This document shows positions 42,998 to 46,201 of a stretch of DNA of 64,000 nucleotides, in pieces. A model generated the notes under the pieces. It was not told the origin of the DNA. It saw only the letters and a list, made by a program, of their open reading frames with translations, and made no database searches. This DNA is from Spirochaetota bacterium (GTDB lineage: Bacteria > Spirochaetota > Spirochaetia > Treponematales > Rectinemataceae), in the NCBI GenBank assembly GCA_022711355.1, contig JAKLFE010000013.1:1-64000 (forward strand), read 5' to 3'. Position numbers and translations under genes: made by a program. Position 1 is the first letter of the stretch; the number at the start of each line of letters is the position of its first letter.

Positions 42998-43300
42998 CTA
43001 TCGCCGCCGCTCCCGCTCCTCCGGGCCGACGTAGAGGTAGACCATGAGGTCGAAGAGCTCCCGCAGCCCGTCGCCCCATCCGAGCATCGAGCCGCTCAGG
43101 ACCCAGGACTCGAGCCCGGAGACCGAGCGCCGGAGGAGGGCCAGGCGCTCGGCGGGCCGGCGTTTCCGCGTGTAGGGGGGATCCGTCGGCTGCCAGTAGA
43201 AATCGTCGGAGTCGAACCAGGGCCAGCCCCGCCGCTGGGCGAGGAGCCTGCCCAAGGTCGAGGTTCCGGAACCGCAGGGCCCCAGGAGATGGATCTTCAC
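42998..43300 (-). pseudogene. Truncated P-loop kinase-like protein
   Basis: 100 residues with Walker A GPCGSGTST at 7-15 and the FDSDDFYW motif found in shikimate/adenylate-kinase-like proteins of roughly 170-190 residues. The frame stops at TAG after YVGPEERERRR, which is just where the lid and second half should begin. Nothing resembling the missing half is seen in the 110 nt before gmhA, so the 3' part is deleted. A short functional protein cannot be excluded. GGAG lies upstream of the ATG. Confidence 0.6.
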
Positions 43301-43321: not shown

Positions 43322-43921
43322 TCAGTTCGTCTTGAAGTAGGCGTAGAAGAGCTCGTTCACCACCGTCTCGACCTGCTTCGCGCTCTCCACGACGGAATCG
43401 AGGAGGTTCTCCCGCTCGAGGCAGTTGCTGCTCTCGCCGTAGAGGTTGATGGAGCTGTAGATGATCTGGAGGGGGTTGCGGATGTGGTGGTACAGCTCGT
43501 GGATGAAGGATTGCTTGACGGCCTCGAAGTCGCGGTCCCCCACGAGGTTGCGGACCGTGACCGCCACCGGCTGCTTGCGGAGCTGGGCGATCTCCTCGAC
43601 GATCCGGGCGTAGGTGACGCAGGCGACGTACTCGCCCGCGGCGTCGAAGACCGGCAGGACGGAGCACTTCTCCGCCTCCATGGCCTCGATCGCCCGTTCG
43701 ACGTCGTCGTCGAGGTAGATGGCCGGCTTGGGCCGGACGCAGTCGACCACCAGCTGGTGGCCGAGGAGGAGGACGTCCGCGGGCGTGACGATCCCGTAGA
43801 AGCGGAGCTCGTCCATGACGACGAGGTAGCCGCGCTCGACCAGCTCCTCCTCGACCGATCCGACGCCCGCGAAGGGCGCGACGACGTAGCCGTCAGTTCG
43901 GAGACACATCCTCACCAGCAT
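43322..43921 (-). CDS. CBS-domain protein with orphan histidine-kinase-like H-box
   Basis: 199 residues. Residues about 38-120 form a CBS-type pair (VMDELRFYGIVTPADVLLL, CSVLPVFDAAGEYVACVTYARI), which in other proteins binds adenine nucleotides. Residues about 132-199 look like a histidine-kinase dimerisation helix pair with HELYHHIRNPLQII (His141 or His145/146 as possible phospho-acceptors). No ATPase domain follows, so it cannot phosphorylate itself. It may be a phosphotransfer or decoy partner for another kinase. The start at 43921 overlaps the end of the upstream gene by 29 nt; Met at 43909 is an alternative. Confidence 0.75.
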   Translation of the reverse strand: MLVRMCLRTDGYVVAPFAGVGSVEEELVERGYLVVMDELRFYGIVTPADVLLLGHQLVVDCVRPKPAIYLDDDVERAIEAMEAEKCSVLPVFDAAGEYVACVTYARIVEEIAQLRKQPVAVTVRNLVGDRDFEAVKQSFIHELYHHIRNPLQIIYSSINLYGESSNCLERENLLDSVVESAKQVETVVNELFYAYFKTN

Positions 43922-44267
43922 GCAGCTCCCCTTTTATATTTCTCTGGAATATGTGGACGTCGAAGTTGACCTTGATCGACTCGCCTCTCGCGACGTAGGG
44001 GAAGACGTATTCCGACAGTATGTCCAGGACCTGCTCCTTGCGGAGCTTGGTGAGGAGGCTCTTGCTGATGATGATCGCCTCGACGTTCCGCTCGCCCTCC
44101 ACCTCGATCATCTCGAAGGAGTCCGGGGAGATGAGCTGGAAGGAGTGCAGGACCCCCATCTTGCCCTGGGGGACCTTCTTGCCGAGGACGAGGATGTCGG
44201 TCACCGGCGGGAGCTTGATCGCCTCGAAGTCGAGGTCGACCACGAAGGAGGTCTCGGATATCTGCAT
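43893..44267 (-). CDS. Small protein of unknown function upstream of the CBS/H-box gene
   Basis: 124 residues, acidic, no signal peptide or membrane segment. I do not recognise the family. Its 3' end overlaps the CBS/H-box gene by 29 nt in another frame, so the two are almost certainly co-expressed. FDVHIFQRNIKGELHAGEDV at the end and a mostly beta/alpha pattern with ILVLGKKVPQGKMGVLHSF suggest a compact domain. A regulatory partner role is conceivable but unsupported beyond gene order. Confidence 0.7.
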   Translation of the reverse strand: MQISETSFVVDLDFEAIKLPPVTDILVLGKKVPQGKMGVLHSFQLISPDSFEMIEVEGERNVEAIIISKSLLTKLRKEQVLDILSEYVFPYVARGESIKVNFDVHIFQRNIKGELHAGEDVSPN

Positions 44268-44289
44268 GCGAATCCCTCGATATCGCCGG

Positions 44290-44318
44290 ATGCTACCTCG
44301 ATTCCGGGCCTAGATCAA
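44290..44318 (-). promoter_or_regulatory. Promoter of the small-protein/CBS operon
   Basis: On the minus strand TTGATC (44313-44318), a 17-nt spacer and TAGCAT (44290-44295) make a good sigma70-type promoter about 22 nt upstream of the ATG at 44267. The leader would be short. Confidence 0.6.
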
Positions 44319-44494
44319 GCTAATTGTTGTTAATGCCGGGCGAGTTGGGCGAAACAGCGGCCCCGCGGGCTGGTAAATCGGTTTTCCTCCCGGCTCGGCC
44401 GGCGCCGCCTGCCTCGCATAACGTCGTTTTTTCACTGAGGGCGGCTCGCCGGGCGCTGGAAATGGGGTATACTTGCCCTTGGAAGAAGCGGCTC

Positions 44495-45745
44495 GTGGAA
44501 TTCACCTACCGACTGATCGACAGCCTCCTGCTCTCCGCGGTGGCCCTCGCCCTCGGCGCCTATGCCCTCAGGCAGGACCCGAGGAGCGGGCTGAACCGGC
44601 TCCTCCTCCTCATCTGCCTCTGCTTCGTCGTCAGGAACACGACCGCCCTCCTCGCCTTCGCCGCCCTCAAGGAGCGCGAGGAGATCGTCGCCCTGTTCAA
44701 GGCCAACTTCCTCTTCCACGCCATTATCTTCTCGATGAACCTCCACTTCTTCCTCCTCCTGCGCGGGAAGAAGGGACCGCCTGCCTGGGCCCTCGCCCTC
44801 GTCTACCTCCCCATGCTCGCCCTGAGCCTCGCCGCCATCCTCGACCACGAGCGCTTCGTCCGCTTCGCGTTTCGGGACGGCGAGTGGCGGATCGCGCTGC
44901 CGCCGCGGGCGGGCCGGGCCTGGTTCCGCGCCTACACCTGGACTACGCTGCTGTACCTGACCGCGACGATGCTCGCCGCGCTGCGCTCGCTCCTGCGGGC
45001 CGCCACGAGGCGCGAGCGCCGGCAGGCCTTGATTCTCATCTGCGGCTTCTCGGCCTACTTCGCCTCGCAGGCGGCCCTGCCCCTCCTGCGGAGGGCAACC
45101 GCCCCGAGCCTCCTCGTCTATCCCCTCTTCGCCTACATCCTCAGCCTCTGCTACGCGACGCTGCGCTACCGCTTCCTCGCCCCCCGGCCCTCGCCGATGA
45201 CCGAGGAGCTCATCGCCCACATCGGCGACGCGGTCTTCCTCCTCGATCGGGACTTCGCCGTCGCCCACGCGAACCCGGCCGCCGAGCGGATCCTGGCCGC
45301 GCCGTCGGGAACCGTGGAGGGCCGGCCCTTCCCCTCCCTGGCCAGGGAGGGCGGGAAGGTCGCCGAGGTCCTCGCGAGCTTCCAGGCCGGGCCCGAGCTC
45401 TCGCTCGGCCTCCGGCTGGCCTTCGCCCGGGGCGAGGACGAGGCGGCGGCCGCCTGCTACCTTTCGAAGGTGAAGGACCGCTTCGCGGACCTCGTGGGGA
45501 TACTCGTCATCGCGAGGGAGCTGCCGGGGCGGAAGGAATTCCAGGGCCTCTACCGGATCACGGGCAGGGAGCTGGAGGTCGTCGACCGGATCCTCGCGGG
45601 CGAGACGAACCAGTCGATCGGAGCTTCCCTCGGCATCTCGGAGCGGACCGTGGAGGCCCACTGCCTCCACGTCTACGCCAAGCTCGACGTCAAGAACAAG
45701 GCCGAGCTCGTGAGGCTCTGCGCCAAGTTCGACCTCCTGCCCTGA
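44495..45745 (+). CDS. Membrane-bound LuxR-family regulator with PAS domain
   Basis: 416 residues from GTG 44495; ATG 44462 is an in-frame alternative, but a TATACT -10-like box (44468-44473) lies between them. Seven membrane helices occupy about 5-235 (histidine-kinase 7TM-like region). A PAS-like domain follows (about 245-340; DAVFLLDRDFAVAHANPAAERI). The C-terminal HTH has ITGRELEVVDRILAGETNQS and GISERTVEAHCLHVYAKLDV, the LuxR/GerE DNA-binding signature. Such one-piece membrane regulators sense an envelope or lipophilic signal and bind DNA directly. The target is unknown; it is divergent from the CBS/H-box operon, a plausible target by position. Confidence 0.88.
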   Translation: MEFTYRLIDSLLLSAVALALGAYALRQDPRSGLNRLLLLICLCFVVRNTTALLAFAALKEREEIVALFKANFLFHAIIFSMNLHFFLLLRGKKGPPAWALALVYLPMLALSLAAILDHERFVRFAFRDGEWRIALPPRAGRAWFRAYTWTTLLYLTATMLAALRSLLRAATRRERRQALILICGFSAYFASQAALPLLRRATAPSLLVYPLFAYILSLCYATLRYRFLAPRPSPMTEELIAHIGDAVFLLDRDFAVAHANPAAERILAAPSGTVEGRPFPSLAREGGKVAEVLASFQAGPELSLGLRLAFARGEDEAAAACYLSKVKDRFADLVGILVIARELPGRKEFQGLYRITGRELEVVDRILAGETNQSIGASLGISERTVEAHCLHVYAKLDVKNKAELVRLCAKFDLLP

Positions 45746-45784: not shown

Positions 45785-46201
45785 TCAGGCGAGCGGGCCG
45801 AGGTCCTTGTCGCCCAGGAGCTGCCGGTACTGCATGTCCTCCTTGCGTATGTGGTTCCTGACCCAGTCGGTGAGGAAGGTGAGGACATCGACGCTGATGC
45901 CCAGCTCCTTGCGCTCGATCTTGCCTGCGAGCTCGGCCACGCTCCGCAGGAGCTCGGCGTGCTGGCGGGCGTGCTCCTCGCGCCGCTCGTAGCCGTAGAG
46001 CTCGAAGGCCTTCTCCTCGGTCGCGAAGTGGTACTTGGTGTAGGAGCCGAGCTCCGAGAAGATGTGCTCCAGCACGGAGCTCCCCTTGCCGCCCCGCATC
46101 GCCTCGTGCAGCTCGTTGACCAGGGCGATCAGCCTCCGGTGCTGCGCGTCGATCGTCGGGTTGCCGGTCTCGAGGCTCGCGTCCCAATCCATGAATGCCA
46201 T
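45785..46201 (-). CDS. Bacteriohemerythrin
   Basis: 138 residues from ATG 46201, a stand-alone four-helix hemerythrin. All seven di-iron ligands of the family can be placed: His21, His58, Glu62, His77, His81, His117 and Asp122. These proteins bind O2 reversibly in the cytoplasm of microaerophiles and anaerobes. It is probably an oxygen store, sensor or detoxifier. GGAGGG lies upstream of the start. The AT-rich leader (46220-46260) holds the direct repeat TTCGC-TATA-TTCGC of unknown meaning. Confidence 0.93.
   Translation of the reverse strand: MAFMDWDASLETGNPTIDAQHRRLIALVNELHEAMRGGKGSSVLEHIFSELGSYTKYHFATEEKAFELYGYERREEHARQHAELLRSVAELAGKIERKELGISVDVLTFLTDWVRNHIRKEDMQYRQLLGDKDLGPLA

Follow-up and report, generated by a model that had tools for sequence, protein, structure and literature searches.

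A conserved spirochaete gene pair joins a small unnamed protein to a CBS-headed histidine kinase hairpin that has no ATPase domain

Two overlapping genes on the reverse strand of the window (the whole stretch of 64,000 nucleotides analysed here) encode a small protein of an unnamed family, referred to below as the partner, and a protein in which a pair of CBS domains leads into the DHp hairpin of a histidine kinase and then ends. This gene pair is real, conserved, and more general than first thought. In the reading favoured here, whose chances we put at about even, it is an instance of a rare signalling module of two genes, and its DHp-only protein would act as an ATP-independent phosphatase or phosphotransferase on receiver domains under the control of the partner and the CBS pair. 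What is new is a variant of the kinase-derived, ATPase-less phosphotransfer proteins, together with the partner family itself. The preliminary description of this DNA overlooked that the partner is the defining element of the pair and is found with full kinases and with a GGDEF-EAL protein as well.

The gene pair

The partner gene (43893..44267, reverse strand) encodes 124 residues of a family recognisable by 'LPP..DIL.LG...P.GK', with a predicted ferredoxin-like fold, and the CBS-DHp gene (43322..43921, reverse strand) encodes 199 residues and no ATPase domain. The two share 29 nt (43893..43921, reverse strand), in agreement with the preliminary description of a 124-residue gene overlapping a 199-residue CBS and H-box gene. 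Four relatives have overlaps of 23, 4, 4 and 4 nt, pointing to translational coupling of the two genes. The same description placed a good promoter upstream; the element TTGATC-17-TAGCAT does exist (44290..44318, reverse strand), yet it matches only 8 of 12 consensus bases and is weak, and a promoter scan with a threshold of 9 of 12 consensus bases listed no site.

A divergent gene on the forward strand (44324-45745) encodes a 473-residue protein with a 7TM region of the histidine kinase type (HisKA_7TM), a PAS domain and then a LuxR-type DNA-binding domain, and no kinase part between them. Control of the pair by this gene, as suggested earlier, is unsupported: at the other loci compared, the LuxR gene does not adjoin the pair. 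Farther along, a bacteriohemerythrin-like sequence (45785-46187, reverse strand; named by eye from its translation) lies at the C terminus of a longer open frame. On the other side, a 100-residue nucleotide-kinase-like gene (42998-43300, reverse strand), seemingly shorter than usual for its family, starts 21 nt downstream of the CBS-DHp gene. No cognate response regulator lies beside the window pair.

The partner and the proteins beside it

The partner was found at eight distinct loci: in the window, in G071, G040, G030, L024, G578 and G506, and on Cupriavidus pMOL30. It is present in four of 98 relatives (the window included), four of 390 genomes of the order and four of 392 genomes of the phylum, samples that overlap and whose counts are not additive. 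The L024 partner is one more, from a contig scan of genomes, and five records of Cupriavidus plasmids or chromids hold one identical partner protein, matched at E 2e-5 from the window query and at 2e-13 from the G506 query. The classes of G578 (46 genomes) and G506 (48 genomes) and the G071 family (23 genomes) yielded no new members when searched, and a search of genome contigs with the CBS-DHp protein alone gave 0 relatives among 47 stretches. Viral contigs searched with partner alignments were likewise empty (0 of 9 and 0 of 37 stretches), and tblastn of phages with the partner gave no result.

At all eight loci, in two phyla, the partner adjoins or is fused to a signalling protein, which bears out the two-gene neighbourhood for which the preliminary description had proposed a search. 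It lies directly upstream at seven of them, overlapping the downstream gene by 29 nt in the window, 23 nt in G071 and 4 nt in G040, L024 and G506, or set apart by 52 nt in G578 and 9 nt on pMOL30; in G030, the remaining locus, it forms a fusion with the DHp hairpin and there is no CBS pair. The output that follows the partner is DHp-only in the window, G071, G040 and G030; CBS-HisKA-HATPase-REC (487 aa) in L024; CBS-PAS-HisKA-HATPase-REC (614 aa) in G578; HisKA-HATPase (351 aa) in G506, where a decayed CBS region no longer scores; and CBS-PAS-GGDEF-EAL (705 aa) on pMOL30. A profile of the CBS module (E 1e-10) matched four of the 390 genomes of the order, namely the three with both partner and CBS pair, plus G175, whose CBS-DHp protein has no partner upstream. 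Because G030 does without the CBS pair and G175 without an upstream partner, neither half of the module is strictly required.

The G175 gene (L045 3283-3945, forward strand) is adjoined on the other strand by an HD-type signalling protein, named by eye. The G030 fusion (L021 5404-5982, reverse strand) is flanked on one side by an HsdR-like restriction gene and on the other by a divergent gene for a 1314-residue hybrid kinase (L021 6376-10320, forward strand), the names at this locus being given partly by eye. An anti-phage role of the pair was unsupported in the PADLOC search, though this copy lies near the HsdR-like gene.

Partner and CBS-DHp protein might also be functionally unrelated and joined by chance, a reading with which the partnerless G175 protein and the different output on pMOL30 would agree. 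Against it stand the pairing at eight of eight loci in two phyla with outer neighbours that vary from locus to locus, the overlaps of 4 to 29 nt at five loci and, above all, the G030 fusion; a chance joining is highly improbable. Across seven pairs (G030, which has no CBS, was left out) the identities of partner and CBS module correlate with r 0.66, a value reached in 196 of 5040 permutations and one in which shared ancestry is uncontrolled. Between the window and G071, differences at the three codon positions are 0.26, 0.23 and 0.47 in the partner gene, a third-position excess, and 0.43, 0.40 and 0.42 in the CBS-DHp gene, which is near saturation and lends no support for selection.

Nine partner residues (L19, P20, D24, G29, P33, G35, F51, L72 and E96) are invariant in the eight sequences. 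At curated cut-offs, neither Pfam nor NCBIfam has a family for the window partner, and PHROG and PADLOC models do not match it either; the partner part of the G030 fusion matches phrog_7948, of unknown function, weakly over residues 60-116 (E 0.0025). In an AlphaFold2 model (7 rows, pLDDT 73.5) a beta strand precedes a beta-alpha-beta-beta-alpha-beta unit. Fold matches to this model are weak (best Foldseek E 0.1, best Z 3.7), and ferredoxin-like proteins are in the list, including PII-like proteins at Z about 3; a PDB sequence search with the partner profile returned nothing below E 0.16. A ferredoxin-like fold is likely from the model, and a PII-like one is a lead only: PII-like proteins such as CPII, SbtB and PstA have the ferredoxin-like arrangement that is predicted for the partner but show no sequence match to it, and a Z this low may mean just that common arrangement.

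The CBS-DHp protein

The CBS pair occupies residues 1-112 of the window protein (43586..43921, reverse strand) and scores 35.4 bits against Pfam CBS, above the cut-off of 24. When modelled (residues 2-112), it superimposes on 1pbj with Z 15.3 and an rmsd of 1.7 over 110 residues, in keeping with a tandem CBS fold. The motif tied to adenine-nucleotide binding by CBS domains, G-h-x-T-x-x-D, is kept in the first CBS domain of the window protein (residue 43) and in five of eight CBS modules altogether, those of G071, G506 and pMOL30 having lost it. PHROGs, NCBIfam and PADLOC gave nothing beyond weak hits, either to kinases or CBS proteins in general or by chance; a weak match of the CBS part to PglX in PADLOC (E 0.0056) was taken as chance.

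The DHp hairpin follows at residues 132-196 (43334..43528, reverse strand) and carries His145, His146 (+1), Asn149 (+4), Pro150 and Gln152. With the protein scanned alone, this segment scores 24.8 bits against Pfam HisKA, just below the cut-off of 26.9; in the genome search it reached 26.7 bits (27 with neighbours) and was marked above the cut-off, and its G071 orthologue lies clearly above with 33.7 bits. In an AlphaFold2 model from a six-row alignment (mean pLDDT 81), the CBS pair leads through a joining helix into a hairpin of two long helices, which run over residues 132-161 and 167-196. The fold search with this model was filled by CBS chains and the DHp part was assessed by profile alone: a profile of four DHp segments matched histidine kinases among solved structures, best 7z8n (E 1.2e-5). 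Hpt was not among the matches of the protein in a Pfam scan at E 1. Profile, model and alignment agree on a DHp hairpin with a phospho-acceptor histidine of the HisKA histidine kinase kind, and it is here that the H-box of the preliminary description finds its place.

An ending without an ATPase domain

The preliminary description had reported no catalytic domain. Pfam likewise detects none, and a search of the 64-kb window with the ATPase domains of three kinase relatives as queries gave no HATPase_c match at E 0.1. In control comparisons of the three domains with one another's loci, four of six gave E 3e-9 or better and two of six were unlisted at E 0.001, so a very diverged domain could escape. 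Nor was a kinase domain located downstream, where the earlier account had allowed that a corrected sequence might restore one. The five diverged DHp-only proteins, one of them fused to the partner, all stop after the second DHp helix, and because they share this end point, a sequencing error or false stop in the window is ruled out. Among 148 HisKA matches in five genomes, three lie in open frames of less than 300 aa and all three belong to the CBS-DHp family; of the other members, that of G040 has a longer open frame and that of G030 went unmatched in this count.

The common ending also bears on whether the protein could be the decaying remnant of a hybrid kinase like that of L024 or G578. 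Such full-length relatives do exist, and the distribution of the pair is sparse (four of 390 genomes of the order, four of 392 of the phylum). However, four other proteins, at 28-40% identity to the window protein, share the short end and an invariant His-box, the frame is open in all five DHp-only proteins, and decay would not remove the acid beside the histidine yet spare the histidine. That the protein is a remnant seems quite improbable.

The histidine box

The boxes of the five DHp-only proteins read HHIRNPLQ (window), HHVKNPLQ (G071), HHTGNPLQ (G040), HNIKNPLQ (G175) and HTTKNPIQ (G030). His145, Asn149, Pro150 and Gln152, in window numbering, are invariant in these five known sequences, an alignment of little depth, and the position of His145 is kept in eight of eight once three kinase relatives are counted. 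The alignment proposed in the preliminary description thereby singles out His145 among its candidate histidines: position 141 is H, A, K, A and A in the same order of genomes, and His146 varies too. The residue at +1 is H, H, H, N and T, so that the acid is lost in all five; D or E stands there in the three kinase relatives (HDFNN, HDFNN and HELLN) and in each of the 29 HisKA matches that the window's genome has besides this protein (26 by pattern, three by eye).

In the portion of Willett and Kirby (PMC3510030) drawn on here, CrdS and three further HisKA kinases depended on the +1 acid for their kinase activity alone and on the Asn or Thr at +4 for their phosphatase activity alone; the histidine was variably needed for phosphatase activity, and only modestly in CrdS. 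Taken with the residue pattern, these results mean that the family has lost the acid on which autokinase activity depends and has kept the asparagine required for phosphatase activity and the histidine required for phosphotransfer. The asparagine at +4, as an inheritance from kinase ancestors, does not by itself show phosphatase use.

The preliminary description had proposed either a phosphotransfer role, which fits, or a kinase-dimer decoy, which in its pure form fits less well because a decoy would not need the histidine. Such a decoy would form mixed dimers with a true kinase and lower or redirect its activity, leaving the histidine unused. DHp hairpins do dimerise, as is established for HisKA and Spo0B, and the ATPase domain is absent, but the conserved residues are His145, Asn149, Pro150 and Gln152, with the histidine and asparagine at the active site and not just in the dimer core; we regard a decoy as unlikely. 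It is improbable, too, that the ATPase domain of another kinase phosphorylates His145 in trans and that the protein then feeds a response regulator. His145 is invariant, the G030 fusion is divergent to the 1314-residue hybrid kinase, and the ATPase domain of that kinase is the sole one found in the five DHp-only stretches examined; against this, no kinase gene lies beside the window pair, and five of five have lost the +1 acid on which, according to the same portion of PMC3510030, histidine phosphorylation depends in HisKA kinases.

Proposed working of the module

A phosphatase or phosphotransferase gated by partner and CBS pair could work as follows. The input would consist of the ferredoxin-like partner and the N-terminal CBS pair, and the output domain would be exchangeable, being the DHp hairpin alone in five spirochaete genomes, the window's included. 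We tentatively see in partner and CBS pair a portable cytoplasmic input in two pieces that has been attached to kinases, to c-di-GMP enzymes and, in spirochaetes, to an energy-gated DHp-only phosphatase or phosphotransferase without an ATPase domain. With a kinase attached, this input would tune autophosphorylation, and with GGDEF-EAL, c-di-GMP; with the hairpin alone, it would control the dephosphorylation of receiver domains or the transfer of phosphate from them. The DHp-only protein would not be expected to autophosphorylate, because the ATPase domain is absent and the acid beside the histidine is lost. Its hairpin, presumably dimeric, would dock on the receiver domain of a response regulator and either strip the phosphate or relay it via His145. 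The switch would lie in the helix joining CBS to DHp, through which partner and CBS-bound nucleotide would act: the putative nucleotide ligand, or binding of the partner in a presumed contact with the CBS pair, would turn this helix and so set the hairpin dimer.

Comparison with known systems

The dimeric histidine phosphotransferases Spo0B and ChpT come closest in function. Both, like the window protein, have a kinase-like helical hairpin with a phospho-acceptor histidine and no autokinase apparatus, and both pass phosphate to receiver domains, a step that for the window protein is predicted only. Spo0B retains a C-terminal domain as well. ChpT does not autophosphorylate with ATP and keeps a C-terminal domain of an atypical ATP-binding fold, as given in the part of PMC3433190 used here. 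In the window protein, unlike in these two, the C-terminal ATPase-like domain is absent (five of five stop after the second helix); what it has in addition is a CBS pair and a partner gene. The PhyT/PhyP-type regulators of alphaproteobacteria are kinase-derived, with a broken ATPase domain, and are described as phosphotransferases or proposed to be phosphatases, PhyT being described as a phosphotransferase with a degenerate ATPase domain (PMC5898713). In contrast to the window protein, they are membrane-anchored, carry an HRxxN motif and have the degenerate ATPase domain remaining, and the excerpt of that paper available to us mentions no CBS pair.

The HisKA kinases with N-terminal CBS in L024 and G578 have the CBS module and the preceding partner in common with the window protein, which is without their HATPase domain and without their +1 acid. 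RMET_RS30470, the CBS-PAS-GGDEF-EAL protein of pMOL30, has a homologous partner, RMET_RS30465, directly upstream and an N-terminal CBS region, as in the window, whereas its output is c-di-GMP turnover; in the sections of PMC6629876 consulted it appears only as a bifunctional DGC/PDE of the pMOL30 metal-resistance island, with the upstream gene unmentioned. Membership of NmpRSTU was rejected, the make-up given in the excerpt of its source not being shared. In titles and abstract beginnings searched for CBS-plus-DHp proteins, ATPase-less HisKA proteins and this pair, a coverage with most subscription journals outside it, the pair is unreported.

Significance

Phosphotransferases that descend from kinases form a small set, and the examples in this comparison retain a broken ATPase domain. 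A sensor-equipped form reduced to the hairpin, in which the kinase acid is gone and the histidine and the phosphatase asparagine are kept, would be a natural separation-of-function mutant, and it would show how little of a histidine kinase suffices for response-regulator control. Its steady placement next to CBS-headed signalling proteins marks the unannotated partner family as a new sensor subunit that can be put to the test, and the well-studied plasmid pMOL30 carries a copy.
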